64,000 nt of DNA from Acidobacteriaceae bacterium. Its GTDB lineage: Bacteria > Acidobacteriota > Terriglobia > Terriglobales > Acidobacteriaceae. Of this stretch, positions 656 to 14,301 are shown piece by piece. The notes under the pieces are model-generated. The model was not told where the DNA came from. It saw nothing but the letters and a program-made list of their open reading frames with translations, and made no database searches. How positions within the stretch are numbered: the first letter of the stretch is position 1; each line of letters starts with the position of its first letter. Both the position numbers and the translations under genes were made by a program. Location of the stretch: contig PLXE01000091.1 of NCBI GenBank assembly GCA_003151335.1, positions 1 through 64,000 on the forward strand, in the 5' to 3' direction.

Positions 656-1186
656 CTACTTGCGGAGCGGTTCCCACCAAGCCTTGGCTTGGGCAGGTGA
701 ACCTTTATTCGCGTACTGAACCCCAAGCCGATCGAGTTCGACGATAACTAATAGGATCGCGTGGTCGACCGCTTTCCGCACGGGTTCACTCAGTCCCGGC
801 CCAGAGTCAAATTGTTGTCCGCTTATTCCGATCAGTAACAAATCCTCAGGAGCTCGCCCGACCATGTCGGCAAGGAATAGCGATTCTGTCAATGCCAGCG
901 AGTGAGCATCGATGCCTGTTAGCGCCGGACGATGGCGCAATATATCTTCTTTGCGGTAGAGCGTCACCGACCCCGCGGGCTCGCCAGTGCGCACCGAGTC
1001 CACCAGAATCACCGCGTCTGTAGTGGAGAGATCAGCAGCGAGATCCAGGCCACGTGTGCCCAGATCGGCGACCTCAACGCCTTCGAAAAAGTCATAGCGC
1101 GAGTCCAGCAAGCGCACGGTGTAAGGCCCAACCCCATCGTCCCCTGCTAGAACGTTCCCAATGCCGCCGATTAGAACCCGCTTCAT
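656..1186 (-). CDS. Hydrogenase maturation protease, M52 family
   Basis: This is a [NiFe]-hydrogenase maturation endopeptidase (HyaD/HoxW/HycI family, peptidase M52), which removes the C-terminal tail of the large subunit after nickel insertion. The frame opens further upstream, but ATG at 1186 starts the conserved MKRVLIGGIGN N-terminus and has an AAGG site just before it. The 176-residue length is normal. Visible motifs are GNVLAGDDGVGP near residue 10, an Asp in VADLGTRG and a His in GIDAHSLAL, matching the nickel-contacting acidic and His residues of the family. It is divergent from the hydrogenase operon that starts near 1.78 kb, and MvhA at 12109 carries the tail this enzyme would cut. 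Which hydrogenase it serves is inference. Confidence 0.9.
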   Translation of the reverse strand: MKRVLIGGIGNVLAGDDGVGPYTVRLLDSRYDFFEGVEVADLGTRGLDLAADLSTTDAVILVDSVRTGEPAGSVTLYRKEDILRHRPALTGIDAHSLALTESLFLADMVGRAPEDLLLIGISGQQFDSGPGLSEPVRKAVDHAILLVIVELDRLGVQYANKGSPAQAKAWWEPLRK

Positions 1187-1704
1187 GATGCCTTCAACTT
1201 TGACCGGGTGGCGAAATCGTTTCCATGAAAGTACTCGTCCGACATCGAAATGATCCGATTTCTGCAAATTGAACTGCAACTCTTGCCCGGGCATCGATCA
1301 GGGTTTCCCGTGCTGGGGTGTGACGACCTGACGGGAGGCCCCTCCACCTTCGACCTAAAGAGGAGCGCGGCCTGACGTTCGACGGGACAACGGCCATAAT
1401 GTATCCGGACGGCGGTATGCTTGGAGGCCCCTGTCTATTCTTGTGAGCCTTCTGTTACAACTTTAAACATACGAAACCCTGCGTACGAAGGCTGCCAGAA
1501 GACTCGGCAAAAGCCTGGGCGGCAGGTTTGATTTTGTTAGCTTGGGAGTACTGTTAGCCGCCAGTACGTAGCGCAGATCTGTAAATATAGTTCTGCCGTT
1601 ATTGTAAAGACAATTGCGCTGTGTCGGCTGGTCAGAATGGAATGGGACTGAAGCGAGGTGCCATTTTGGGAATCAGAGAAAGATAAAGAAGAGGTAAATT
1701 TAAC
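1187..1704. other. Intergenic region upstream of the hydrogenase operon
   Basis: About 500 bases between two divergent transcription units. Short open frames on the minus strand (1194-1397, 1537-1719) have no domain or ribosome binding site. The right part becomes AT-rich toward the promoter at 1705-1733. I see no gene. Confidence 0.4.
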
Positions 1705-1733
1705 TTGCTTGATATTCAATCTATTTTTATAAT
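1705..1733 (+). promoter_or_regulatory. Sigma-70-type promoter of the MarR/hydrogenase operon
   Basis: TTGCTT at 1705-1710 and a perfect TATAAT at 1728-1733 are separated by 17 bases, in an AT-rich patch 50 bases before the MarR start codon. The spacer contains TTGATATTCAA (1709-1719), a dyad with TTGA/TCAA arms. This could be an operator for the adjacent MarR-type regulator; operator function is inference. Confidence 0.55.
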
Positions 1734-1782
1734 TTAGTCAGGTTGACCTCATCGCCTACTCCTTATTCGACGAGGGTGTGCC

Positions 1783-2406
1783 ATGGCTCGAAGCGGGAGA
1801 ACGGGCTCCATTCAACAGTTCCTGGGAAGTGCCCACCTCTTCTCCTCCGCGTTGACCGAAATCCTTCAAAACCGTTTGTTGTGGGAAGCAGGCGCCACGA
1901 ATCTGAGTTTTTCGCAGTTGAAGCTCCTGCAATTACTCGCGATTACCGAAACCCAGACCATAGGCGAATTGGCTGCATTTCTCGGGGTGAGCAACGCCGC
2001 GGCAAGCAAGACAGTGGAGAAACTGGTTCAGAGCGGTTGGGTGTCTCGTACTACAGCGGAAAGCGACAGACGAACAGCGCACGTTGCCCTGACACGTCGG
2101 GCCCATCATTTGCTTGCGGTCTATGAGCGGAAGCGTCAGCAAAAACTGGCAAAGGTGTTCGACAAGGCATCTTTGGAGGAGTTGCGGAGGATGGCCACGC
2201 TCATGGACCAGATTACGGTCGAGATGGTGAATCACAGCGCGAAGCCCGAGGACATCTGTCTGCACTGCGGAATTTATTTTCGAGACAAGTGCCTGGTTCG
2301 TGATTTAGGTGGACACAGTTGCCTGTACCGGCGGCGGGCAAAAATCACGAGCGAGCGGGGGGCGCGGCGGAATGAAAATTGTGCCATGAAGTTGACACTC
2401 AAGTAG
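1783..2406 (+). CDS. MarR-family transcriptional regulator with C-terminal Cys cluster
   Basis: The first 150 residues or so form a winged-helix MarR domain: an N-terminal helix, IGELAAFLGVSNAAASKTVEKL as helix-turn-helix, then a DRRTAHVALT wing. The C-terminus is unusual: after residue 155 four cysteines follow in the order C-x2-C-x7-C-x9-C (ICLHCGIYF...KCLV...HSC), then a basic tail. Such clusters commonly bind zinc or an Fe-S cluster; here a redox or metal switch is inferred. The gene precedes the hydrogenase/Hdr/ETF run by 52 bases in the same direction, so it is likely the operon's own regulator. ATG at 1783 has a GAGGGTG site upstream. Confidence 0.8.
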   Translation: MARSGRTGSIQQFLGSAHLFSSALTEILQNRLLWEAGATNLSFSQLKLLQLLAITETQTIGELAAFLGVSNAAASKTVEKLVQSGWVSRTTAESDRRTAHVALTRRAHHLLAVYERKRQQKLAKVFDKASLEELRRMATLMDQITVEMVNHSAKPEDICLHCGIYFRDKCLVRDLGGHSCLYRRRAKITSERGARRNENCAMKLTLK

Positions 2407-2458
2407 TTGGTGTACAGCGTACGGAACCGGTCAGGCGTCCGGTTCGGAAAGTGCTCCG

Positions 2459-3604
2459 ATGTCAGCCTTGGCTGGTCGGTTGCATTTGGATGGTTGGCGC
2501 TGGGTATTCCTGGTGATGATTTCCGGAGGGGCCGTTGCGAGCTTTTTGGCAGCGGGACACGGGCTGGGAGCCACAACGCGGCTCAGCGATGCAATTCCTT
2601 GGGGTCTCTGCCTCGGGTTGAATGTCTTCTGCGGCATCGCCTTGGCGGCAGGCGCGCTGACATGGGCAATCGTTGCTTTTGTTGTGGGTGGCGGCGACTG
2701 GCGAATCGTCGGGCGGGCGAGCCTCTTGACCGGGTCAATCGGTTACGTTGTCGCGATGCTGGGGGCCATCGCCAATGAAGCCCCCAACAACCACTTGCTT
2801 TCAACGCTGATCCGCGGATGGACACCGCGGTCGATTCTATCGGGAGCAGCTTGGACCTGTTTGCTGCTGGCCGCCCTGTTGTTCATTGAGTTCCTGCCTG
2901 ATCACTCTTTCCGGCTAATCCGTAAGTGGTGGTTTGTGAAATTCCAGCGACTGGAACTGCCACTGCTGTTCCTGGTCACAATTTTGGCGGTGCTTCATCA
3001 ATTCGGCTTGAGCCGCCTGATCGTGCTTGCTGGAACACGGTTCTCTCCCCTGTGGTTGGGTCCCAGTTTGTCCATGATCTTCTACACGTCTTCGGTGCTG
3101 GGGGCGCTCGCGGTACTCCTTTTCGCTTCCTGGAGGAGTTGGGTTGCTTTCGGTAAAACGCTTCCTTTGCCGGTGCTGCCGGTAATCGCGCGCGCCCTCA
3201 CAGCCGCGGCATTCGTTTATCTGCTCGTAAGACTGATGGACTTACTGGAACGTGGGCTGTTCTCATCCCTGTTCACCATGACGCGCGAAGGCCTGCTGCT
3301 CCTGCTGGAGATTGTCGTCCTCCTCATCGGGATGATGTGGATCAAGGGCAATGAGCATAAACCGCGCGAACTGTTTGTTGGTTCCGCCCTGATCATCGCG
3401 GGGGTAATGGCAAATCGCCTCAATACCGCGATTACCGCGCTCGAAGCCGGGACAGGCCAGAATTACTTGCCGCGTTGGGGCGAATTCCTGATCGCCTACA
3501 GCTTGGTGGCAGTGGGCGTGGGGGCTTTCGCTTTGGCAGTGAAGCATCTGTCCGTCTTGTCAGAAGTCGATGCGGGAACACAAGCCAGTTTTTCTTTTGG
3601 GTAG
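2459..3604 (+). CDS. NrfD/HybB-type integral membrane subunit
   Basis: A 381-residue polytopic protein with about ten hydrophobic helices, of the NrfD/PsrC/HybB family that passes electrons between periplasmic or cytoplasmic Fe-S partners and quinone. The late motif NRLNTAITALEAG followed by LPRWGEFLIA is close to the HybB signature. No HybA-like ferredoxin gene accompanies it, so its electron partner is probably one of the Fe-S proteins downstream. It begins 52 bases after the MarR gene and ends 8 bases before the HdrD-like gene. GGAAAG precedes the ATG at 2459. Family assignment is firm; the partner is inference. Confidence 0.8.
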   Translation: MSALAGRLHLDGWRWVFLVMISGGAVASFLAAGHGLGATTRLSDAIPWGLCLGLNVFCGIALAAGALTWAIVAFVVGGGDWRIVGRASLLTGSIGYVVAMLGAIANEAPNNHLLSTLIRGWTPRSILSGAAWTCLLLAALLFIEFLPDHSFRLIRKWWFVKFQRLELPLLFLVTILAVLHQFGLSRLIVLAGTRFSPLWLGPSLSMIFYTSSVLGALAVLLFASWRSWVAFGKTLPLPVLPVIARALTAAAFVYLLVRLMDLLERGLFSSLFTMTREGLLLLLEIVVLLIGMMWIKGNEHKPRELFVGSALIIAGVMANRLNTAITALEAGTGQNYLPRWGEFLIAYSLVAVGVGAFALAVKHLSVLSEVDAGTQASFSFG

Positions 3605-3612
3605 GTGCACCG

Positions 3613-4833
3613 ATGGGTACTGCAAGCCACAATATTGCTACGCAATCAAAAACGCTGCCGTGCGAGATGACCTTGGAGAACCTTACCGAGTTTCCCGAGG
3701 GCAGGCGCGTCTTGACCTGCATTCAGTGCGGGACTTGCGCCGGCACGTGCCCCTACGGGGAACTGATGCAGTACCCGCCGCGGCGCATTATCGGCATGTT
3801 GCGCGCTGGGGAGTTGGAGAAAGTCTTTACCAGCGACAGTCTGCTGGAATGTGTTGCCTGCTATGCGTGCACGGCGAAGTGTCCTCGCGGGATCGATCTC
3901 ACGGGCGTGCTTTTGCCGTTAATTAAGGAGCAAGTACTCTTGCATCTGCCGGTGATGCCAGCAGAGTTACAGAAGGCGTTGGAAAACAAGCTCCGCTATG
4001 GGAACCCCATGGGAGAATCGCCGCGAAAGCGCGCCGCCTGGGTGAAAACCGCCGGCGTGCCTGTTCGTATCCTGTCCGAAGATCCCCGCCCGGCAGAAGT
4101 CCTCTGGTACGTTGAGTGCTATACCTCCTACCATCCACGGGGACAGGACAACGCGCGCGCCACCGCGCGGCTGCTGCACGCTCTGGGGATTGATTTCGCA
4201 ATCCTGGGCAACGAGGAGAAATGCGCCGGTGAATGCGGCCGTCTGTCCTGGGAACGCGGACTGTACAACACCCTCATGGAATACAACATGCTGGTGTTCG
4301 CGAAATACCAGTTCAAGATGATCGTCACTTCCTGCCCACACGCTTACGACGCGTTCCGCTACCGCTACCCGATCGTGGGCTTCAATTACAGGATCAGCCC
4401 GGTACCACCTTTTTTCGCGCAATATCTTCCACAGCTCAAGTCCATCCTAAAGCGCAATCTGAACTACACCGTCACCTACCACGACTCCTGCTGCCTGGGC
4501 CGTCACAACAATTTGTATGAAGAACCTCGTGCCCTGCTGCGAGCCATTCCGGGCGTCAAGCTGGTGGAGATGGTCCACAACCGCGTGAATACCATCTGCT
4601 GTGGCGGGGGAGGCGGCGGCATGTGGCTGGACACGTATTACAAGACCAAAGGTATCGAACGGCTGTCTGAGCGGCGCGTCAAGGAAGCCATTGCTACTGG
4701 AGCGGACGTCCTGGCTGTGGCCTGTCCCTACGAAGTTTCGCGGTTTGAAGATGCTCTCAAAGTGTTGGGTCACGAAAAGAAGATGATCGTCCGCGACATC
4801 ACCGAACTGCTGGCCGAAGCCATAGAGGTATAA
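3613..4833 (+). CDS. Soluble HdrD-like Fe-S oxidoreductase (HdrC+HdrB fusion type)
   Basis: This 406-residue protein joins two [4Fe-4S] ferredoxin motifs (Cys36/39/42/46 and Cys80/83/86/90) to two CCG domains, the layout of heterodisulfide reductase HdrD or fused HdrCB. The second CCG domain is complete (TYHDSCCLGRHN about 288-299 and CCGGGGGG from 329). The first is partly altered: Cys169, KCAGECGR (204-208) and SCPHAYD (241) lack the usual CPHC second Cys. It has no membrane segment. A longer open frame begins at 3475 but overlaps the previous gene, so ATG at 3613 is preferred. It sits 3 bases before EtfB and probably stands in for HdrBC as electron acceptor or donor of the HdrA unit. Confidence 0.85.
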   Translation: MGTASHNIATQSKTLPCEMTLENLTEFPEGRRVLTCIQCGTCAGTCPYGELMQYPPRRIIGMLRAGELEKVFTSDSLLECVACYACTAKCPRGIDLTGVLLPLIKEQVLLHLPVMPAELQKALENKLRYGNPMGESPRKRAAWVKTAGVPVRILSEDPRPAEVLWYVECYTSYHPRGQDNARATARLLHALGIDFAILGNEEKCAGECGRLSWERGLYNTLMEYNMLVFAKYQFKMIVTSCPHAYDAFRYRYPIVGFNYRISPVPPFFAQYLPQLKSILKRNLNYTVTYHDSCCLGRHNNLYEEPRALLRAIPGVKLVEMVHNRVNTICCGGGGGGMWLDTYYKTKGIERLSERRVKEAIATGADVLAVACPYEVSRFEDALKVLGHEKKMIVRDITELLAEAIEV

Positions 4834-4836
4834 ACC

Positions 4837-5622
4837 ATGAAGATCATTGTGCTACTCAAAATGGTCCCCGACGTAGTCGAAGAACTGGAAGTCGCCGCCG
4901 ATGGCAAAACCCTTGATAGCGAGTTTCTGCGCCTAATAGCGAACGAACTCGACGCTCAGGCGCTGGAAGAGGCACTGCTTCTGAAGGAGAAATACACCGG
5001 GACCGTGACCGTCGTGTCCTTGGACGCTCCCGAGGTGGATGATGCTCTGTTTACCGCCCTGGCCAAGGGCGCCGATCGAGCAATCAAAATCACCGGCGGC
5101 GACGGAGCGCTCGGCACTCGTGCGGGAGCCTATCTCCTGGCACAGGCGCTTTCCACCATTCAAGGCTTGTTGCCTGCCGACCTCATCCTTACCGGAGCGC
5201 AGGCGATTGACGATCTCGACGGACTCACCGCTCCCTTGATCTCGCACCTGTTGCGATTGCCGCAACTCGGGATTGTCACAAAGGTGAGCGTGGACACTGC
5301 CGCCGGAGTCGCAACCGTATTGCGAGAGTTCCCCGGCGGAGTCCGCGGTGAGTACGAAATCAAGCTGCCCGCAGTGCTTGGAATCCAGGCAGCCGAGAAG
5401 CCACCGCGCTATGTGCCGGTGGCCAAAGTGCGGGCGGCCATGAAATCCCAGGTGATCCACTCCGTGCCCGCTCCCATGATGGCCGATGGCGGTGTTGCCT
5501 TATTGCAAGTAGCGGCGATGGCCAAGCCCGAAGTAACCGAGCACGCGCAGATGCTCCGAGGCTCTCCGGAAGAGATTGCCGATCAACTCTGCGAGATTCT
5601 GGCCGCTCGCGGCCTGGTCTAG
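4837..5622 (+). CDS. etfB: Electron transfer flavoprotein, beta subunit
   Basis: A full-length 261-residue EtfB. The N-terminus MKIIVLLKMVPD, the central LTGAQAIDDLDG and the GGVRGEYEIKLPAVLGIQ stretch are typical of the beta subunit, which binds AMP or a second FAD and pairs with EtfA. Partner dehydrogenases are not in the window. It lies between the HdrD-like gene and EtfA with 3- and 11-base gaps, so the pair is co-transcribed with Fe-S proteins of the EtfD/Hdr class. Whether it is a bifurcating ETF cannot be settled by eye. Confidence 0.93.
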   Translation: MKIIVLLKMVPDVVEELEVAADGKTLDSEFLRLIANELDAQALEEALLLKEKYTGTVTVVSLDAPEVDDALFTALAKGADRAIKITGGDGALGTRAGAYLLAQALSTIQGLLPADLILTGAQAIDDLDGLTAPLISHLLRLPQLGIVTKVSVDTAAGVATVLREFPGGVRGEYEIKLPAVLGIQAAEKPPRYVPVAKVRAAMKSQVIHSVPAPMMADGGVALLQVAAMAKPEVTEHAQMLRGSPEEIADQLCEILAARGLV

Positions 5623-5633
5623 AAAGGGGGCCT

Positions 5634-6623
5634 ATGGCAGGCAATGTTTGGGTACTCGCTGAACAGTGGAGAGGCCAGCTCTCTGAGATTACGTACGAAG
5701 TCCTGGCGCTGGGTAAGGAGCTGGCCACCGCTCTGGGATGTGATCTTCAGGCGGTGCTCCTCGGTCACAACGTCAAGCCGCTGGCTGCGAGTTTGGGCAA
5801 GGCGGATTCCGTGCTTTGCCTCGACCATTCTGCGCTGGCCACGCCGGTGGCCGAGATCTTCGCCCACGCCTTGACGCCGATCATACGCGCCAGGAGTCCA
5901 CAAGCCATCCTGATGCCGCTTACCAACGTGAGTTTGGGAGTTGCGTCTCTTCTGGCCGAGGAGCTTGGGATTGGCTGTGTCAATTTCTGCCGGGATGTGC
6001 GAGCGGTGGATGGCAGCCTGCAAACCCGATCCGTCCTCTACGGCGGCAAGATGGAGGCCATCGTCAAGCCCGCGCAGAGACCTGCGATTCTGGGCATCTT
6101 GCCCGGGGTTCGTCCGCCTGACGAGGGGCTGGCTGAAACCGTGCCGCCCATCGAAGACGTGACCGTAGATGTGCAAGAGTCATCCAGCATTCGCTGGAAA
6201 CGCTACATCGAGCCTGAAATCGGTGATGTTGATATCAGCAAACAGGAAGTCCTGGTATCGGTGGGCCGGGGGCTTCAGTCCCCCGATAATGTCGCCGTGG
6301 CAGCGGAGCTGGCCGAAGCATTGGGTGGCGCGGTGTGCGGGTCGCGTCCGGTGATTGATCAGGGTTGGCTGCCGCTTTCCCGGCAGGTGGGCAAGTCTGG
6401 AGTGGTGGTGAAGCCGAAGCTGTACCTGGCAGCCGGTATCAGCGGCGCGCCGGAGCATGTGGAAGGCATGAAGAACAGCGAACTCATCATTGCCATCAAC
6501 ACCGATGAGCAGGCGCCCATCTTCCACGTGGCGCAATATGGCATCGCCGCCGACGTTATGGATCTGCTGCCCGCGCTCACCGAGGCAGTGCGCAGCCGGA
6601 AAGAGGTCAAAAGCCATGCCTGA
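5634..6623 (+). CDS. etfA: Electron transfer flavoprotein, alpha subunit
   Basis: A 329-residue EtfA with the C-terminal FAD domain clearly visible: GSRPVIDQGWLP, QVGKSGVVVKPKLYLAAGIS, and the AINTDEQAPIF / YGIAADV block. It forms the ETF heterodimer with the preceding gene. GGGGG lies four bases before the ATG. The stop overlaps the start of the next gene by 8 bases (ATGCCTGA), showing tight translational coupling to the membrane EtfD-like protein, the expected electron acceptor of an ETF feeding the membrane. Confidence 0.93.
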   Translation: MAGNVWVLAEQWRGQLSEITYEVLALGKELATALGCDLQAVLLGHNVKPLAASLGKADSVLCLDHSALATPVAEIFAHALTPIIRARSPQAILMPLTNVSLGVASLLAEELGIGCVNFCRDVRAVDGSLQTRSVLYGGKMEAIVKPAQRPAILGILPGVRPPDEGLAETVPPIEDVTVDVQESSSIRWKRYIEPEIGDVDISKQEVLVSVGRGLQSPDNVAVAAELAEALGGAVCGSRPVIDQGWLPLSRQVGKSGVVVKPKLYLAAGISGAPEHVEGMKNSELIIAINTDEQAPIFHVAQYGIAADVMDLLPALTEAVRSRKEVKSHA

Positions 6624-8580
6624 TCCGGCGATTTTCAACTATTTCGGAGTGCCGGGATACTCATTGCTGTGGTTGCTCACCTTGATCTCCTTTCTTGTCT
6701 TCGGGAGACAGGTGACGCGCCATGTTAGAGTCCTGGCACACGCACGCGCCGAGAATCGCTGGGACCAGATTGGCAAGCGGATCGGGCTGGTAGTGACCAA
6801 CGTGCTGGGTCAGCGGCGGCTCTTCGATGAACCGTTGATTGGTGCCGCTCATTTTGTGATCTTCTGGGCTTTTGTTCTTTACGCCACCACATTTTTCTGG
6901 AGTTTGTTCCGAGGTCTGGTCCCTGCTATGGCCATTCCGTATCCCGACGAAGTAGCCTGGATCGCCACTTCGGTGCAGGTGATAGGGGTGTTGGCGGTCG
7001 TCGCGCTGTGTGTGGCAGCAGTGCGGCGATACATCTTCACACCGGTGAGTCTGGAGCGATCGTGGGATGCGGCGATCATTCTTCTCCTCATCGCCCTCGT
7101 TCTACTGTCCTCGCTTGCCGGTGCTGGATTCCGAGCATTGGCGGCCACAGAAGGAGAATCTTCTAGGTCCGTAGGCGGCTTCTTGGGTGGACTGTTTGCC
7201 TATCTTGGTGTCAGCCCCGCCCATGCGCCGACTCTTTATCTGGCGGCTTGGTGGATCCACATGATCACGGTGCTTGGATTCCTGGCCTACCTGCCATACT
7301 CCAAGCACCTTCATCTGCTGGCTTCGCCCTTCAGCGTCTTCTTTGCTTCGCTGCAGCCCAGCAAGATGCCGCCAGCGTCCGAAGGAGCCTCCCGCTTGGA
7401 AGAATTCACCTGGCGGGAACTTTTCAGCGGGTTGGCATGCGCCGAGTGCGGCCGCTGCGACCGCGCATGTCCCAGTTTTGATTGCGGGGACCCGCTGTCT
7501 CCGAAGCAGCTTATCCATCACGTCAAGGAGCTTGTACTGACGCTGGATTCTGTATCAAGCCATGGCAAGACGTTTCTGGGCGATGTGGTCCGGCCAGAAG
7601 ACATCTGGGCCTGCACGACCTGTGCCTCATGCATGGACCGCTGCCCGGTCTTCAACGAACACATCCCCCTTGTGATGGAGATGCGGCGGAAGCTTGTCTC
7701 GGAAGGCCAGGTCCCGCCAGGTCTCCCGGAGGCGCTGAACAACCTGGCGCGTTATGGCAACTCCTTCGGGCAGTCGGAACGCAAGCGTGCCGTGTGGACC
7801 CAGAGCCTGGGTTTCAAGCCCAAAGACGCGCGCAAGGAAACGGTGCAGTGGCTGTGGTACCTGGGCGAGTACGCCTGTTATCACCCGGGGCTGCAGAGCA
7901 TCACGCGATCGCTGGCTCGCACTTTGTATGCCGCTAAAGTGGATTACGGCATTGTCTATGAGTCCGAGCGGAACTCGGGCAACGACGTGCGCCGGGTTGG
8001 CGAAGAAGGGCTCTTCGAGCTATTGCGGCAGAAGAACACCGCCATGCTGCAACAGGCGCACTTCGACGGTCTATTCACCACGGATCCGCATGTCTACAAC
8101 ACATTCAAGAATGAATACCCAGAGCTGAACCATGGCCGGCATCCTATCCGTCACTACACGGAACTGCTGGCGACTCTGTTTGATCATGGTGAGTTGAAGG
8201 CGGCGCGCAAGCTGCCCTACCGGGTGACCTACCACGATCCCTGTTATCTCGGCCGCTACAACGGAGTCTACGATGCGCCGCGAAGGGTGCTGCAGGCCAT
8301 TGGGGTGGAACTGGCGGAGATGCCTCGTTCCCGTCGGCAGAGCTTCTGCTGTGGCGGAGGCGGTGGTCGTATCTGGATGGAAGAGGCTGGCCAGGCGCAC
8401 TCTCGCCCCAGCGAAAGCCGGGTGCGCGAGGCCGCCAGTCTGGATGGAGTTCGTTACCTGGTGGTGACGTGTCCGAAAGACTACGTCATGTTCACCGATG
8501 CTCTGAAGACTACGGGACTGGAAGGCAAGTTGTTGGTTAAGGACATTGCCGAACTCGTGGAGGAAGCGGTTGCAGCTTAG
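6616..8580 (+). CDS. Membrane-bound EtfD/HdrD-like Fe-S oxidoreductase
   Basis: This 654-residue protein starts with about five or six membrane helices (roughly residues 15-245, NarI/HdrE-like), then two [4Fe-4S] motifs (CAECGRCDRACP and CTTCASCMDRCP), then two CCG domains. This is the EtfD or fused HdrED layout, which takes ETF electrons to the quinone pool. The second CCG domain is intact (YHDPCYLGRYN, CCGGGGGR). The first has lost its ligands: where the family has C-x-GD and TCPHC it has RNSGND and TDPHV, so only one noncubane-type cluster is likely. The ATG at 6616 overlaps etfA by 8 bases. It is a paralogue of the soluble protein at 3613 (shared RYGN...RKRA.W linker). Confidence 0.85.
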   Translation: MPDPAIFNYFGVPGYSLLWLLTLISFLVFGRQVTRHVRVLAHARAENRWDQIGKRIGLVVTNVLGQRRLFDEPLIGAAHFVIFWAFVLYATTFFWSLFRGLVPAMAIPYPDEVAWIATSVQVIGVLAVVALCVAAVRRYIFTPVSLERSWDAAIILLLIALVLLSSLAGAGFRALAATEGESSRSVGGFLGGLFAYLGVSPAHAPTLYLAAWWIHMITVLGFLAYLPYSKHLHLLASPFSVFFASLQPSKMPPASEGASRLEEFTWRELFSGLACAECGRCDRACPSFDCGDPLSPKQLIHHVKELVLTLDSVSSHGKTFLGDVVRPEDIWACTTCASCMDRCPVFNEHIPLVMEMRRKLVSEGQVPPGLPEALNNLARYGNSFGQSERKRAVWTQSLGFKPKDARKETVQWLWYLGEYACYHPGLQSITRSLARTLYAAKVDYGIVYESERNSGNDVRRVGEEGLFELLRQKNTAMLQQAHFDGLFTTDPHVYNTFKNEYPELNHGRHPIRHYTELLATLFDHGELKAARKLPYRVTYHDPCYLGRYNGVYDAPRRVLQAIGVELAEMPRSRRQSFCCGGGGGRIWMEEAGQAHSRPSESRVREAASLDGVRYLVVTCPKDYVMFTDALKTTGLEGKLLVKDIAELVEEAVAA

Positions 8581-8595
8581 GTAGGAGCACTTCCC

Positions 8596-10593
8596 ATGGC
8601 AGAGAGCAAGGACATCGATCGCAACGGCGTGCAGATTGGAGTGTACGTCTGTCATTGCGGCACGAATATCGCCGGAACTGTAGATGTAAAGGCCCTGACC
8701 GAGTATGCCGCCACTTTGCCGGGCGTCACCATGGCGCGTAACTACAAGTATGTATGCTCCACGCCGGGCCAGGAACTGATCAAGCGCGACATCCACGAAC
8801 TCGGACTCAATCGCATTGTCGTGGCAGCATGCTCACCGTGTCTGCACGAGAAGACTTTCCGTAACGTCGTGGCCGAAGCGGGACTCAACCCCTACTACTT
8901 CCAGATGGTGAATATCCGGGAGCACGACTCCTGGGTGCACACCGACAAGCGGGCGGCCACGGAGAAGGGTAAGGATCTCATCCGCGCTGCCGTGCGCCGT
9001 GTGCGGCTGCATAAGCCCCTGGAGAGGAAGCGCGTCTCTATCAATCCGGCAGTGCTGATCGTGGGCGGAGGTATTGCCGGTATTCACGCAGCGCTGACCA
9101 TGGCCAATGCCGGCAAGCACGTCTATCTCGTCGAGCGCGACGCCACCATCGGCGGGCACATGGCGATGTTTGACAAGACGTTCCCCACCCTCGACTGCGC
9201 CGCTTGCATCCTCACGCCGAAGATGACCGCCGTGAAGTCCCATCACAATATCACTTTGTGGACCTTGTCCGAGGTCACTCAGGTGGACGGCTACGTCGGC
9301 AACTACCAGGTGACGATCAAGCATAAGCCACGCTACGTGATTGAAGATGCGTGCGTGGGTTGCATGGAGTGCATTGACGCCTGCGTCTACAAGCAGGCCA
9401 AGGTGCCCGACGAGTTCAACATGTACCTCGGCAAGCGCAAGCCAATCTACATTCCATTTCCGCAGGCCGTCCCCCAGGTGGTGGTCATTGATCGGGAAAG
9501 CTGTATCGAGTTCAAGTCAGGCAAATGTAAGAAGACTTGCGTGGAGGTCTGTGCCGACCGCAAAGCCATTGATTTCAAGCAGCAGGAAACCACCGAAACA
9601 ATCGAGGTGGGGACCATCATCCTGGCCACCGGATTCTTTACGTTTGACGCCAAGCGTGTTCCCTATTATGGCTACGGAATCTACCCCAACGTGTACACGG
9701 GGCTCGAAGTCGAGCGCCTGATCAACGCCGCCGGGCCCACCAACGGAGAGGTGATCCTACGGGACGGTCGGAAACCACAGAGAGTGGCCATTGTCCACTG
9801 TGTTGGCAGCCGCGACGAGAACACGAATCGGTACTGTTCCAGGGTTTGCTGCATGTACTCCCTGAAGCTGGCCCATCTGATTAAGGAAAAGACTGAGGCG
9901 GAAGTTTTCAACTTCTACATCGACATGCGTACCCCAGGTAAAGGCTTCGAGGAGTTCTACAACCGCGTGGCCGATGAAGGGACGCACTTCGTACGCGGCC
10001 GTGTGGCTGACATCTACCCTAATCCTGGAGATGGCGGCCGTTTGCTCGTCTGCGCCGAAGACACCCTTATGAGCACGGTGCGCAAAATCCCCGTGGATAT
10101 GGTCGTGCTTTCCACCGGACTGGAGCCGCAGGCCGACGCCCAGGATGTCCGCCGCCGTTTTCACATAACCTGTTCAACCGAAGGCTTCTTCCTGGAACGC
10201 CATCCTAAGCTGGCTCCGGTGAACACCTTCACTGACGGCGTCTTCTTGGCGGGATGCTGCCAGGGTCCTAAGGATATTCCCGACACGGTAGCGCAGGCAG
10301 GCGCCGCCGCGGCAGAAGCCCTGGCCTTAATCGACATCGGCTACATCGAACAGGAGCCGAACACCGCCCATGTCCTGGAAGAGGTCTGCTCAGGTTGCAA
10401 GACGTGTATCCCACTCTGTCCCTATCAAGCCATATCGTTCGCGGAGAACAAGAAGAAGGCCGAGATCAACGAGGTGCTCTGCAAGGGCTGTGGGACCTGC
10501 GTCGCTTCATGCCCGTCTGGATCGGTCCAGCAGAACCTGTTCGAGGATGAGCAGATCTTTGCCGAAATCGAGGGGTTACTAGCCTATGCCTGA
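8596..10593 (+). CDS. hdrA: HdrA-type heterodisulfide reductase subunit A
   Basis: A 665-residue HdrA, the FAD subunit that in methanogens performs flavin-based electron bifurcation between H2, ferredoxin and heterodisulfide. It has an N-terminal Cys domain (VYVCHCGTN, AACSPCLHE), the thioredoxin-reductase-like FAD domain with VGGGIAG near residue 156, an inserted ferredoxin segment (CVGCMECIDAC near 252) and two C-terminal [4Fe-4S] motifs near 598 and 629 (CSGCKTCIPLCP, CKGCGTCVASCP). AGGAG precedes the ATG at good spacing. The stop overlaps mvhD by 8 bases. No hdrB or hdrC follows; the fused Fe-S proteins upstream are the likely replacements. Confidence 0.93.
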   Translation: MAESKDIDRNGVQIGVYVCHCGTNIAGTVDVKALTEYAATLPGVTMARNYKYVCSTPGQELIKRDIHELGLNRIVVAACSPCLHEKTFRNVVAEAGLNPYYFQMVNIREHDSWVHTDKRAATEKGKDLIRAAVRRVRLHKPLERKRVSINPAVLIVGGGIAGIHAALTMANAGKHVYLVERDATIGGHMAMFDKTFPTLDCAACILTPKMTAVKSHHNITLWTLSEVTQVDGYVGNYQVTIKHKPRYVIEDACVGCMECIDACVYKQAKVPDEFNMYLGKRKPIYIPFPQAVPQVVVIDRESCIEFKSGKCKKTCVEVCADRKAIDFKQQETTETIEVGTIILATGFFTFDAKRVPYYGYGIYPNVYTGLEVERLINAAGPTNGEVILRDGRKPQRVAIVHCVGSRDENTNRYCSRVCCMYSLKLAHLIKEKTEAEVFNFYIDMRTPGKGFEEFYNRVADEGTHFVRGRVADIYPNPGDGGRLLVCAEDTLMSTVRKIPVDMVVLSTGLEPQADAQDVRRRFHITCSTEGFFLERHPKLAPVNTFTDGVFLAGCCQGPKDIPDTVAQAGAAAAEALALIDIGYIEQEPNTAHVLEEVCSGCKTCIPLCPYQAISFAENKKKAEINEVLCKGCGTCVASCPSGSVQQNLFEDEQIFAEIEGLLAYA

Positions 10594-11104
10594 TGTAAGT
10601 TCCAACCTGTCACAAGCTGTGCCGCTCGAGGCTGAACAGCCAGCTTTCGAACCCAGAGTAGTGGCCTTCTTTTGTACCTGGTGCACCTACATGGCGGCCG
10701 ATCTCGCCGGCACTTCACGCATGAAGTATGCCCCCAATGTGCGGGTAATTCGAGTGATGTGCTCAGGACGCATCGATCCCCAGTTCGTGCTGGCGGCTTT
10801 CGCTAACGGCGCGGACGGCGTGCTTATCGGCGGATGCCATCCCGGTGACTGCCATTACCAGGAAGGCAATTACAACTGCCTGCGCCGCGTCCGCCTGCTT
10901 AAGCGCGTACTCGAGGAACTGGGCATCGAAGAGGACCGCTTTCGCTTGGAATGGATTTCAGCGGCCGAAGGCGATCGAGTGCGAGTGGTCATCAATGACA
11001 TGGTGGAGAAGCTGCGGGCGCTCGGGCCGCTACAGATGAAGAAGGAAGTGGCGCTCCGACCGCTCAGCCCGGAGGAGCATGCGCTGCAGGAGGTGGCCGT
11101 ATGA
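10586..11104 (+). CDS. mvhD: MvhD-like [2Fe-2S] hydrogenase delta subunit
   Basis: A 172-residue MvhD/FrhD-like adaptor that carries electrons from the [NiFe] hydrogenase to HdrA through a [2Fe-2S] cluster. Conserved cysteines are visible in FFCTWCTYMAAD, VMCSGRIDP and GCHPGDCHYQEGN. The N-terminal extension and the C-terminal 30 residues are variable in the family. It starts inside the end of hdrA (8-base overlap) and overlaps mvhG by the ATGA at 11101, so HdrA-MvhD-MvhG are strongly coupled. Confidence 0.93.
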   Translation: MPDVSSNLSQAVPLEAEQPAFEPRVVAFFCTWCTYMAADLAGTSRMKYAPNVRVIRVMCSGRIDPQFVLAAFANGADGVLIGGCHPGDCHYQEGNYNCLRRVRLLKRVLEELGIEEDRFRLEWISAAEGDRVRVVINDMVEKLRALGPLQMKKEVALRPLSPEEHALQEVAV

Positions 11105-12072
11105 CACGGGAAAAACCGAAAATTGCCTTCTACTGGTGCGCATCCTGCGGTGGCTGTGAGGAGGCTGTGGTTGACTTGGCAGAGGAAATCCTCGATGTGG
11201 TCGCCGCCGCGGACATCGTGTTCTGGCCGGTCGCGCTCGACTTCAAACGCCGCGACGTCGAGCAGATGCCAGATGGCTCCATTCTGGCGACATTCCTGAA
11301 CGGCGCAATCCGTACGTCGGAACAGGAAGAGATGGCCAAACTGCTGCGCCGCAAATCGAAGTTGCTTGTGGCCTTTGGCTCGTGCTCACACCTGGGCGGC
11401 ATTCCCGGACTCGCCAATCTTTTCACTCGCGAGAGCATCCTGCAGACGGTGTATTTCGAAACCCCCACCACTGAGAATCCTGAATGTGTACTTCCTGGCG
11501 TACCAGGGAAAGATGGGAACGGTAAACTTACGCTCCCTTACTTCTCGGAGCGGGTTCGCGCGCTCGACCAGGTTGTCGAGGTCGACTACTACCTGCCCGG
11601 CTGCCCGCCGCTGCCGAGGATTATCACGCGCGCCGTGGCGACGCTGCTCGGGGAACATCTGCCGGATAAGGGAAGTGTTCTCGCTCCTGATGAAGCGCTT
11701 TGCACCGAATGTCCACGTAAGGATTCCAAGCCGGAAAAAATTGCGCTGAAGTCATTCAAGCGGCCGCAGGAGATCCTGATCGACGAAACCCAATGCCTGC
11801 TTGCGCAGGGGTTGCTGTGCCTGGGACCGGCAACTCGCGCGGGATGCGAGGCGCCTTGCGTACAGGGCAACATGCCTTGCACCGGTTGCTGCGGTCCACC
11901 AGGACGAGTGCGGGACCAGGGAGCCAAGGCACTGTCGGCGATCGCCTCGCTAGTGGACAGCCAGGATGAACAGGAAATTGATACCGTCCTGGCTAGTATT
12001 CCGGACCCAGTCGGCACTTTCTATCGCTACAGCCTGCCGGCTTCGCTGCTGGCACACAGCCGTAAGGTTTAG
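11101..12072 (+). CDS. mvhG: [NiFe] hydrogenase small subunit, MvhG type
   Basis: A 323-residue small subunit with no twin-arginine signal, so cytoplasmic. The proximal-cluster ligands are seen in CASCGGCEE (about residue 13), GSCSHLGG and LPGCPP. The C-terminal half holds many more cysteines (LCTECPRK, AGCEAPCVQ, PCTGCCGP) for two further Fe-S clusters, consistent with group 3 enzymes. It relays electrons from MvhA to MvhD. It overlaps mvhD by four bases and precedes mvhA by 36 bases. Confidence 0.92.
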   Translation: MTREKPKIAFYWCASCGGCEEAVVDLAEEILDVVAAADIVFWPVALDFKRRDVEQMPDGSILATFLNGAIRTSEQEEMAKLLRRKSKLLVAFGSCSHLGGIPGLANLFTRESILQTVYFETPTTENPECVLPGVPGKDGNGKLTLPYFSERVRALDQVVEVDYYLPGCPPLPRIITRAVATLLGEHLPDKGSVLAPDEALCTECPRKDSKPEKIALKSFKRPQEILIDETQCLLAQGLLCLGPATRAGCEAPCVQGNMPCTGCCGPPGRVRDQGAKALSAIASLVDSQDEQEIDTVLASIPDPVGTFYRYSLPASLLAHSRKV

Positions 12073-12108
12073 ACCTGATCAGGAAAAAGTTCTGTTTTGA
12101 GGTGTCTC

Positions 12109-13677
12109 ATGGCCGATGCAACAACTGCCGAAAAAGCATGGAGCCAAGCCGCCAAAAAAGCGGGCGAACAATATCTTCATCGCCGCATCACCATTGACCC
12201 AGTGACGCGTCTGGAGGGCCACGGCAAGATCGAAGTCTTTCTCGACGATGCTGGCGAGGTGGATCGCGCCTATTTCCAGGTACCAGAGCTGCGAGGCTTC
12301 GAAAAGTTCGTGCAAGGCCGTCCGGTTGAAGAGATGCCGCAGATCACATCGCGCATCTGTGGGGTGTGTCCCACGGCGCACCACATGGCGGCAACCAAAG
12401 CGCTAGACGCCGTCTACCATGTCGAACCACCTGAGGCGGCGAAGAAGATCCGTGAACTCCTGTACTCCACTTTCATGGTCGAGGACCACACTCTTCACTT
12501 CTACTACCTTGGCGGACCCGATTTCGTTGTCGGTCCCGATGCTGCGCCATCGCAACGCAACATCCTGGGGGTGATACAGGCTGTCGGCATCGAGAACGCA
12601 AAAAAGGTAATTAGCATGCGCCGCCGTTTGCGCGAACTGATTGCTCTGGTGGGCGGCAAGCCGGTACATCCGGTCTTCGGACTTCCCGGCGGGGTCGCCA
12701 AACGTTTCACCCCGGACATGCAGAAGCAGTTCCAGGAAGCGGCCGAAGATGCCGTGGCCTTTGCCGCATTCACGCTCAAGGTTTTCGATGATCTTGTACT
12801 CAGCAAGCGTGAATACCTCGAACTCATCACCTCCGCCGACTACACCCATCGCACCTATTACATGGGGCTGGTTGACGACGAGAATCATGTCAACTTCTAT
12901 GATGGCAACATCCGTATCGTTACGCCGGATGGGCAGGAGTGGAAGAAGTTCCCGGGAACAGATTATGCCGAGGTTATCGCCGAGCATGTCGAACCTTGGA
13001 GCTATGCGAAGTTCTGCTACTTGAAATCCCTGGGCTGGAACGGCTTCGCTGACGGCAACGATACGAGCATTTACAGCGTCGCGCCTCTGGCGCGCCTAAA
13101 TGCTTCCGATGGCATGGCCACGCCGCTCGCCCAAGAGCAATATCGCCGCTTCTTCACGACTCTGGGCGGCAAGCCTGTGCACCATACTCTGGCCAATCAC
13201 TGGGCTCGGTTGGTGGAGCTGCTGTACGCCGCTGAGCGCATGCGCGAGCTGGCGCATGACGACCGCCTGCTCGCTCCCGAATACCGGCTGCTGCCGACCG
13301 CACTCCCGACCGAAGGAGTCGGAGTCGTGGAAGCACCACGCGGAACGCTCATCCACCACTATCACACTGACGAGCATGGAATCGTTCTGCGCGCGAACCT
13401 CATCGTGGCCACTCAGAACAACTCGGCGCGCATTGCCCTGAGCGTGGACAAAGCGGCCAAGGGCTTGATCCATGGCGACGACGTTCCAGAAGCAGTGTTG
13501 AACAAAATCGAGATGGCATTCCGCGCATACGACCCTTGCAACGCGTGCGCGACTCACGCCTTCCCTGGAGAAACGGGGCTGGGTGTCAGAGTGCATGATG
13601 GTAAAGGAAATGTGATTGCCGAGTTACGACGCGATCATAATGGTCAAGTAACCAAGAACCGATCAGTTCGGAGGTGA
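12109..13677 (+). CDS. mvhA: [NiFe] hydrogenase large subunit, MvhA type
   Basis: The catalytic subunit, 522 residues from the ATG at 12109, which has GAGGTG five bases upstream; a TTG in frame at 12097 is a weaker start. Nickel ligands are present as RICGVC (residues 83-88) and DPCNACATH (475-483), with VTRLEGHGKIEVFLDD near the N-terminus. Both motifs use cysteine, so this is [NiFe], not [NiFeSe]. A 39-residue tail follows the final His and should be removed by an M52 protease such as the one at 656-1186. Order and Cys pattern point to group 3 (HdrA-linked, F420-non-reducing type). H2 uptake or evolution cannot be read from sequence. Confidence 0.93.
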   Translation: MADATTAEKAWSQAAKKAGEQYLHRRITIDPVTRLEGHGKIEVFLDDAGEVDRAYFQVPELRGFEKFVQGRPVEEMPQITSRICGVCPTAHHMAATKALDAVYHVEPPEAAKKIRELLYSTFMVEDHTLHFYYLGGPDFVVGPDAAPSQRNILGVIQAVGIENAKKVISMRRRLRELIALVGGKPVHPVFGLPGGVAKRFTPDMQKQFQEAAEDAVAFAAFTLKVFDDLVLSKREYLELITSADYTHRTYYMGLVDDENHVNFYDGNIRIVTPDGQEWKKFPGTDYAEVIAEHVEPWSYAKFCYLKSLGWNGFADGNDTSIYSVAPLARLNASDGMATPLAQEQYRRFFTTLGGKPVHHTLANHWARLVELLYAAERMRELAHDDRLLAPEYRLLPTALPTEGVGVVEAPRGTLIHHYHTDEHGIVLRANLIVATQNNSARIALSVDKAAKGLIHGDDVPEAVLNKIEMAFRAYDPCNACATHAFPGETGLGVRVHDGKGNVIAELRRDHNGQVTKNRSVRR

Positions 13678-13836
13678 TCGCTTAACGCGCAAGTGCTTAT
13701 GAACGATTGGCTTCAATAACAGACTTGCCATTTCGCTGGAGCGAAGATCAGCGACGTGGAAAATACCAACTGCGGAAGCGTGCTTCACGTGCAACGACTC
13801 GGCGAGCCTATTGACAGATCCAGAGGAGGGGTTCGC

Positions 13837-14301
13837 ATGATACACACAGTTGAACCGATTCTCAGAGGGAACCCGTTCTTCGAAGGCTTGGAAGAAAAGC
13901 ACGTCGAATCGATCGGCGGATGCGCTCGGAGCGTTCTCTTTGAGCAAGGACAGGTCATCTTCCATGAAGGTGAGCCAGCGGACCAATTTTACGTTATCCG
14001 CGAAGGCCTGGTGTCAATACAGTTCATGATTCCTCATAGGGGTCTGACCACCGTGCAATCGGTGGGCGAGGGAGATGTGCTGGGGTGGTCCTGGCTGTTT
14101 CCTCCCTATCGCTGGCATTTTGACGCGCGGGCGCAGCAGTCGACATACGCGCTGGCGTTTGATGCGAAGCGCCTGCGAAGCATGTGCGAAGAGGACCACG
14201 ATCTGGGCTACGAGATGTTCAGGCGGTTTATGCAGGTTGTCACCGAGCGCCTGGAGGCCACGAGATTGCAACTATTGGATGTTTATGACAGCCATAAGTG
14301 A
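13837..14301 (+). CDS. Single cyclic-nucleotide-binding-domain protein
   Basis: A 154-residue protein that is almost entirely one CRP-type cNMP-binding beta-roll: VLFEQGQVIFHEGEPADQFY, a glycine-rich GEGDVLGWSWLF turn and the following helix. No DNA-binding helix-turn-helix follows, so it is not a classic CRP/FNR factor. ATG at 13837 has a very strong GAGGAGGGG site six bases upstream; an in-frame ATG at 13756 lacks one. It follows mvhA by 159 bases in the same direction and may sense a ligand or dock to an enzyme of this system, which is inference. Confidence 0.8.
   Translation: MIHTVEPILRGNPFFEGLEEKHVESIGGCARSVLFEQGQVIFHEGEPADQFYVIREGLVSIQFMIPHRGLTTVQSVGEGDVLGWSWLFPPYRWHFDARAQQSTYALAFDAKRLRSMCEEDHDLGYEMFRRFMQVVTERLEATRLQLLDVYDSHK

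Follow-up and report, generated by a model that had tools for sequence, protein, structure and literature searches.

Where does a hydrogenase built around HdrA send its electrons when HdrB and HdrC are missing from its operon? The window analysed here raises this question at positions 656 to 14,301. The window is a stretch of 64,000 nucleotides on contig PLXE01000091.1 (C71) of an Acidobacteriaceae genome bin of 4.65 Mb in 121 contigs, completeness 100. HdrA and the [NiFe]-hydrogenase MvhAGD are encoded there together with an electron transfer flavoprotein (ETF, chains EtfA and EtfB), a membrane protein of the EtfD type and a soluble HdrD-like protein, hereafter HdrD (Table 1). All genes named in an earlier sequence-only reading of this DNA are present, and from the MarR gene onward they are colinear on the + strand. 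In our judgement the case is evenly balanced that the locus encodes a soluble HdrA-based bifurcating hydrogenase with a high-potential branch that runs to the quinone pool rather than to a heterodisulfide.

The gene set recurs in other genomes. A profile of HdrD (alignment of 12 proteins) was run once against 84,980 species genomes, and the best 80 of 100 stretches yielded 76 distinct loci, many on short contigs. Three of the 76 matched through an HdrC-type protein only, leaving 73 HdrD loci. Both EtfA and EtfB accompany HdrD in 56 of these; 31 also have HdrA and MvhA, and 30 of those 31 have EtfD. Among the 44 HdrD loci flanked by 3 kb or more on each side, EtfA and EtfB are found in 42, HdrA in 40 and all of these plus EtfD in 39. 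The five incomplete loci include L101 and L146, with no ETF pair at threshold (a weaker EtfB is seen in L146), L134, where the contig ends, and L131, which has no EtfD; in L115 HdrA and EtfD lie outside the counted range. This recurrence indicates an association beyond chance. The sequence-only reading had proposed a link between HdrA, MvhDGA, ETF and the quinone pool, with fused Fe-S/CCG proteins instead of HdrB and HdrC, and had suggested a synteny search; a conserved set of this kind, with a fused HdrC/HdrB-like protein in the place of HdrBC, is supported by the synteny across genomes and by the sequence and fold matches described below.

By record title all 76 loci are from genome bins and none from an isolate, thus single contigs may be misplaced; phylum names are those of the genome records. 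The trio HdrD, EtfA and EtfB spans eleven named phyla. Loci that have HdrA and MvhA as well come from eight phyla: Acidobacteriota (10 loci), Verrucomicrobiota (9), Planctomycetota (5) and, with one each, Zixiibacteriota, Bacteroidota, Ignavibacteriota, Thermoplasmatota and Actinomycetota; two further loci are unassigned. The nearest loci with the cassette belong to Acidobacteriota, several of them to Terriglobia. A close HdrD was found in 13 of the 399 genomes of the class that were examined, its own genome included, hence presence within the class is patchy. Gene order varies more than gene content; many Verrucomicrobiota have EtfB-EtfA-EtfD-HdrD-HdrA.

Relatives have the canonical genes in the place of the cassette. 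HdrC-HdrB-HdrA-MvhD-MvhG-MvhA is the arrangement in G001 and G002, which belong to the same genus, and in G057 and G046, which belong to the same family; in G002 each half of HdrB contains cysteine motifs of the CCG type. Genes for MarR (54% identity, partial length) and NrfD (72%) also precede HdrC-HdrB-HdrA in G002; HdrD-EtfB-EtfA-EtfD-HdrA of the window stands where G002 has HdrC-HdrB-HdrA. Both blocks are found in line in G740 and G795, from another family, in the order HdrD-EtfB-EtfA-EtfD-HdrA-HdrC-HdrB-HdrA-MvhD-MvhG-MvhA. Double clusters are seen in L069, L072 and L136, with one HdrA after EtfD, another after HdrB and a single Mvh set downstream; a HdrA heterodimer with two outlets is possible in such clusters. 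The order in G101 is MvhD-MvhG-MvhA-EtfB-EtfA-EtfD-HdrD-HdrA, which two contigs of G108 also fit. We note that in G101 and G108 a second, diverged MvhG-MvhA pair (28-29% identity; L048:6338-8567 and L049:6378-8559) lies beside the main MvhDGA genes.

The 65 HdrA proteins placed on a tree were labelled by the upstream gene (47 Etf-type, 17 HdrBC-type and one unclear); on the MvhG and MvhA trees the labels are per fetched locus and rough. The Etf label changes 3 times on the HdrA tree, against 16.0 times in shuffles. The corresponding values are 15 against 17.2 for MvhG (96 of 500 shuffles as low) and 13 against 15.2 for MvhA (65 of 500). HdrA thus tracks its partner, HdrBC or HdrD-Etf, a pattern mostly missing from the hydrogenase subunits. 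The HdrA of the window groups with those of L087 (90% identity) and L068 (G712, 84%) with an SH-aLRT support of 100; its MvhG and MvhA group with G001 and G002 (SH-aLRT 100 and 99). From HdrD to HdrA the operon is 77-90% identical to L087, and from MvhD to MvhA only 69-72%; compared with G001 and G002, HdrA is 71-72% and MvhDGA 74-86% identical. This pattern identifies the operon as a mosaic with its joint at hdrA/mvhD. An incoming cassette and differential loss from a double cluster such as that of G740 and G795 would both account for the mosaic. Identities to L087 and L068 are 86 and 64% for EtfB and 77 and 59% for EtfA; for MvhG/MvhA they are 72/69 and 70/70%. The cassette is therefore much closer to L087 than to L068 while MvhG and MvhA are equally distant from both, which favours transfer.

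The proteins of the cassette were examined residue by residue; the aligned rows counted below include the window's own protein and 8-10 repeated contigs per family. The N-terminal part of HdrD matches HdrC (5odc_C, 1e-21). An AlphaFold2 model of HdrD (37 sequences, mean pLDDT 90) retrieved with Foldseek first EtfD 9ojn (E 1e-20), then a LutA model and then HdrB chains. HdrD is thus predicted to have an HdrC-HdrB-like body with EtfD-like ligand sets. Both ferredoxin-type clusters are intact in 77-78 of 78 rows. In the second CCG domain His-243, Cys-293, Cys-329, Cys-330 and Cys-371 are each present in 78/78 rows, and the site aligned with Cys-712 of EtfD, the sixth ligand of the D2 cluster, is Glu in 77 rows and Asp in one. 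The first CCG domain is degenerate: Cys-169 is found in 74/78 rows, Cys-204 in 66/78, Cys-208 in 74/78 and Cys-241 in 21/78. Position 205 is Cys in 0/78 rows which, with the rarity of Cys-241, makes a catalytic Hdr-type cluster in this domain unlikely. Judged from its sequence, HdrD would be an HdrC+HdrB-like fusion that lacks the first catalytic cluster. The HdrD of L108 was considered as a selenoprotein and rejected, the in-frame stop lying upstream of the likely protein.

The membrane protein EtfD retains both ferredoxin-type [4Fe-4S] clusters (8 Cys in 61/61 rows). His-79 and His-233, aligned to the haem-b ligands His-78 and His-241 of Mycobacterium smegmatis EtfD (9ojn), are invariant (10/10). 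Its D2 site keeps the His and four Cys, and the fifth Cys is replaced by Asp; this sixth ligand is Asp in all 56 of the 61 rows that reach the position. The ETF-linked EtfD that lies beside an acyl-CoA dehydrogenase elsewhere in the same genome reads CPFC at this place, so the acid ligand is not a general EtfD trait. An acid at the sixth ligand is thus common to HdrD and EtfD, in the cluster thought to meet ETF. None of the four D1 linear [3Fe-4S] ligands of the mycobacterial type is found at the aligned places. According to PMC13083937 (papers cited by PMC number were available in part, and statements from them hold for those parts) D1 ligands are likewise absent from FadF and DgcB; its authors argue that D1-less EtfD homologues accept ETF electrons at D2. 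The same paper gives structural and growth data that EtfD moves electrons from ETF to menaquinone.

The ETF itself may act as a carrier. The residues of EtfA that surround the alpha-FAD (Arg-238, Ser-255, Ser-270 and His-275) are found in 68/68 rows, and most rows show a cassette-typical GISGAPEHxEGM. In EtfB we take the GDT(A/G)QVG loop to be a mark of bifurcation; this loop and NPDD, as seen in the bifurcating chains 5ol2, 7koe and 6fah, are both absent in 71/71 rows, which suggests that the splitting takes place in HdrA. The nearest match of EtfB is the ETF of 1o94, which we take to be non-bifurcating. In the part of PMC9232219 available, no statement linking the EtfB loop to bifurcation was found. 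That one ETF accompanies two proteins whose D2 cluster carries the same change of ligand is consistent with its shuttling from one to the other.

HdrA was compared over 75 rows, HdrBC-type rows included. Glu-371 and Lys-424 are present in 75/75 rows. The ferredoxin-motif cysteines C253-C319 and C598-C639 are kept in 74-75/75 rows, as are Cys-201, Cys-204, Cys-402, Cys-414, Cys-418, Cys-419, Cys-54 and Cys-79; Cys-19 and Cys-21 are kept in 73/75, and Cys-82, Cys-486 and Cys-554 are variable. Glu-371 and Lys-424 were equated with Glu-356 and Lys-409 of Methanothermococcus from their spacing of 53 residues and from the CCMYxxK motif.

Mvh hydrogenases oxidise H2 and HdrA splits electrons, both being established families. 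The input side probably works as in HdrABC-MvhAGD: MvhAGD would split H2, and MvhD would relay the electrons to the flavin of HdrA. There the electrons would part, one reducing ferredoxin and the second reducing HdrD, which may dock on HdrA in the place of methanogen HdrC-HdrB. From the D2-type cluster of HdrD the electron would reach the alpha-FAD of the dedicated ETF. The reduced ETF would carry electrons to the like cluster of membrane EtfD, whose [4Fe-4S] clusters and haem b could pass them on to menaquinone. The net reaction would be 2 H2 + Fd(ox) + MQ -> Fd(red) + MQH2, where Fd is ferredoxin and MQ menaquinone. Somewhat more tentatively, just short of an even judgement, we suggest a widespread class of HdrA hydrogenases that split H2 between ferredoxin and ETF. 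In this class ETF would be mobile between HdrD and EtfD, homologous docking proteins of which one is soluble and the other in the membrane, and which would share a carboxylate-ligated noncubane cluster; H2 respiration to quinone would pay for ferredoxin reduction in uncultured bacteria of several phyla, and an archaeal form would do without EtfD.

Several observations weigh against the quinone-linked bifurcation scheme. A Thermoplasmata bin (L131) has HdrD-EtfBA-HdrA-MvhDGA without EtfD, and a search of the bin (2.2 Mb, completeness unstated) gave no full-length EtfD and no match to the EtfD membrane part. The quinone end is therefore not universal; this locus fits an ETF belonging first to HdrD-HdrA. 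HdrB is also present in 17 Etf loci, so a thiol/disulfide branch can coexist with the cassette. EtfA profile scores are nearest to bifurcating chains (253 bits to 5ol2_A; 211 bits to 1o94_D). HdrD and EtfD are 37% identical, no closer to one another than to the beta-oxidation EtfD of the genome (37 and 38%), so recent duplication does not explain the shared acid. Some clustering remains on the hydrogenase trees, all three labels jointly being as low in 6 of 200 shuffles for MvhG and 3 of 200 for MvhA. The Glu/Lys pair of HdrA has been proposed to separate bifurcating from non-bifurcating HdrA (PMC12054007), and the majority of HdrA carry both residues according to the same source; being kept equally in HdrBC-type rows, the pair is no proof of bifurcation. 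Finally, synteny is no proof of a complex, and the ETF could instead be fed by an unlinked dehydrogenase.

The rest of the source genome was searched as well. EtfD on contig C73 adjoins EtfA, an EtfB-sized frame (EtfB being presumed from position) and an acyl-CoA dehydrogenase, an ordinary beta-oxidation layout. A further EtfA on C75 brings the genome to three. The ETF of the operon is therefore additional, and fatty-acid oxidation was rejected as its explanation. Four genes with a POR_N domain are potential users of ferredoxin; one HypD is present, and NifH gave weak matches only (21-31 bits). Searching the bin for CCG domains produced 11 matches, spread over 7 open frames (458-1057 aa), two of which belong to the operon. 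The other five, judged by eye, are the EtfD on C73, two GlcF-like proteins, an FAD oxidase joined to a part resembling GlcF and, on C64, an HdrD/DsrK-like protein of 543 aa. The sequence-only reading had asked whether HdrB and HdrC encoded elsewhere are the true partners; they were looked for and none was found among these CCG-domain frames, HdrB included. The 543-aa Fe-S/CCG protein (L175, C64:10491-10793) lies outside the operon and is a possible other partner.

The direction of the reaction was examined by calculation. With the potentials used in PMC10734219 (ferredoxin -450 mV, menaquinone -74 mV), the forward reaction yields -59 kJ per 2 H2 at 1 atm, -13 kJ at 10 Pa and -1.5 kJ at 1 Pa. 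Its sign flips between 1 and 0.1 Pa H2, or between 10 and 1 Pa with ferredoxin at -500 mV. Unless H2 is very low, the reaction would therefore probably run towards uptake. The same complex working mainly in reverse, with ETF loaded by acyl-CoA or other dehydrogenases and its electrons confurcated in HdrA with those of reduced ferredoxin to give H2 in fermentation or syntrophy, seems unlikely to us. Such systems are reversible in principle, and the record titles of several loci name groundwater or sediment, where H2 can be very low; the change of sign nevertheless needs less than 1 Pa H2 (10 Pa at -500 mV). The acyl-CoA dehydrogenase of the genome adjoins a different ETF/EtfD, and no substrate-dehydrogenase-like family was seen in at least 3 of 66 cassette neighbourhoods, as judged with crude longest-first picking of open reading frames and families mostly read by eye (some families are antisense frames and few were scanned). 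H2 evolution driven by ETF-fed electrons, one of two directions offered by the sequence-only reading, is disfavoured: with ferredoxin at -420 to -500 mV and menaquinone at -74 mV it would yield energy only once H2 falls below a threshold that lies between 0.1 and 10 Pa.

Less probable again is an H2:ETF:quinone oxidoreductase that does not bifurcate, in which all electrons pass through HdrA, HdrD, ETF and EtfD to menaquinone and HdrA is a plain relay. This arrangement accounts for ETF and EtfD without extra assumptions; however, the C-terminal ferredoxin-domain cysteines C598-C639 of HdrA are retained, Glu-371 and Lys-424 are invariant, and a simpler membrane hydrogenase would suffice for such a task. 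We consider it improbable that HdrA-MvhAGD works here as a thiol-disulfide enzyme whose HdrD acts on an unknown disulfide, ETF/EtfD being co-transcribed for another purpose. The HdrC-HdrB shape of the HdrD model in Foldseek, the three mostly kept cysteines of its first CCG domain (Cys-169, Cys-204 and Cys-208) and HdrB in the 17 Etf loci speak for this reading, but that domain is without the Hdr cysteine pair (positions 205 and 241), EtfA and EtfB accompany HdrD in 42 of 44 loci, and the block as a whole is nearest to one relative and MvhDGA to others.

The bifurcating, quinone-linked hydrogenase that we favour may be compared with known systems. It shares HdrA, MvhD, MvhG and MvhA with HdrABC-MvhAGD of hydrogenotrophic methanogens (5odc), and HdrD resembles HdrC+HdrB. 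In contrast to that complex, HdrB and HdrC are absent, the catalytic noncubane pair is not kept, and ETF and a membrane EtfD are part of the block; because HdrB and its clusters are missing, it is not a strict member. The likeness to EtfD of M. smegmatis, an ETF:menaquinone oxidoreductase (9ojn), comprises the membrane part, the haem-b histidines, two [4Fe-4S] clusters, most D2 ligands and the adjacent EtfBA. Here the D1 ligands are absent, the sixth D2 ligand is Asp, and the protein is tied to HdrA and a hydrogenase. HdrF3-EtfBA of Desulfobacterium autotrophicum provides a comparison for EtfD beside EtfBA; in that organism EtfBA-hdrF3 and hdrA1-mvhA2DG are described as separate clusters (PMC2702500). 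EtfABCX of Thermotoga maritima also couples ferredoxin and menaquinone reduction through an ETF (PMC10734219). In that system NADH donates the electrons and bifurcation takes place in the ETF, whereas here H2 would be the donor, EtfB is without the loop and the candidate for the splitting is HdrA. In sHdr-EtfAB of Thermomicrobium roseum (PMC6776052), Hdr-type proteins are proposed to feed the respiratory chain, possibly through ETF; that system involves sulfur-carrier and lipoate-binding proteins and the oxidation of sulfur compounds, and in the part available no hydrogenase is named.

The sequence-only reading knew of no characterised complex with this content, and none was found in the open-licence literature searched, which did not cover the review of HdrA(BC) modules by Appel et al. 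2021; nor does the gene set appear in the available parts of papers dealing with Margulisbacteria, SEEP-SRB and archaeal HdrA. We have filed the system as a variant of HdrA-based bifurcating hydrogenases, new relative to that literature. The origin of all loci from bins may explain the lack of description. If the proposal holds, respiring non-methanogens would have an added route from H2 to low-potential ferredoxin, spending the drop to menaquinone, and HdrA would gain an ETF partner. It would also provide a role for MvhADG-type genes in bacteria; we know of no heterodisulfide in bacteria that carry them. The carboxylate-ligated noncubane cluster would be placed in two linked proteins, which is testable. 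The natural swap of HdrCB-HdrA and HdrD-EtfBA-EtfD-HdrA before related hydrogenase genes likewise makes the modular logic of HdrA complexes testable.

Table 1. Genes of the locus, with positions in the window and the matches on which their assignment rests
Feature	Positions	Strand	Basis
HycI/HupD-type [NiFe]-hydrogenase maturation protease	656..1294	-	PF01750 67 bits; TIGR00072 123 bits, over cut-off
MarR-family regulator, operon head	1783..2406	+	PF01047 49 bits
HybB/NrfD-like integral membrane protein	2459..3604	+	NCBIfam HybB 134 bits/1e-38, HmcC 108 bits/6e-31, both below cut-off
Soluble HdrD-like protein	3613..4833	+	double [4Fe-4S] part of HdrC type, joined with two CCG domains
EtfB	4837..5622	+	PF01012
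EtfA	5634..6623	+	PF00766 105 bits
EtfD-like (ETF:menaquinone oxidoreductase type)	6616..8580	+	profile E 1e-115 to M. smegmatis EtfD 9ojn
HdrA	8596..10593	+	E 2e-213 to 5odc_A
MvhD (FlpD), [2Fe-2S] adaptor hydrogenase-HdrA	10586..11104	+	PF02662 185 bits
MvhG, hydrogenase small subunit	11101..12072	+	PF01058; best NCBIfam VhuG 202 bits, below cut-off
MvhA, [NiFe]-hydrogenase large subunit	12109..13677	+	best NCBIfam VhuA 403 bits, below cut-off
Cyclic-nucleotide-binding-domain protein	13756..14301	+	PF00027 only (Pfam)

Judged by their spacing, the genes from MarR to MvhA form a single tight operon; the sequence-only reading had named separate transcription as a refuting condition, and spacing is the evidence that bears on it. 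The gaps from NrfD to MvhA are, in order, 8, 3, 11, -8, 15, -8, -4 and 36 bases; 52 bases separate MarR from NrfD, and 78 separate MvhA from the cyclic-nucleotide gene. Probable starts are ATG 3613 for HdrD, ATG 6616 for EtfD and ATG 12109 for MvhA. Both NiFe-binding CxxC pairs of MvhA are kept (RICGVC and DPCNAC). Terminator-like sites between 600 and 15200 are not above chance (13, against a mean of 13.6 in shuffles), and promoter-like sites show no excess either. The HybB/NrfD-like protein reached no family in the Pfam scan; it is a candidate quinone site outside the conserved cassette. The dedicated protease of the sequence-only reading is present, on the opposite strand. Its dedicated regulator is the MarR protein, since the cyclic-nucleotide protein matches only its binding domain and the Pfam scan gave no DNA-binding domain for it. 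Relatives of the latter protein (48-55% identity) lie near the cluster in G712, G101 and G108, and weaker ones in three further regions.

In L106, L107, L109 and L110 another family follows the cassette; in L107 it is a protein with an [FeFe]-hydrogenase domain (PF02906), the other three being assigned by BLAST grouping, and HdrA was matched over only about 250-270 aa in L106 and L107. The cassette may therefore pair with another hydrogenase type. The source genome itself has a second hydrogenase cluster on C53 (L053:3719-12976) with MvhG, MvhA (45% identity to the operon MvhA), a HycI-like protein, a HdrA fusion and MvhD. The HdrA fusion is 1489 aa long with GltD/Nfn-like domains (Fer4_20, Pyr_redox_2), and resembles HdrL (PMC2702500) and type III HdrA (PMC12054007).

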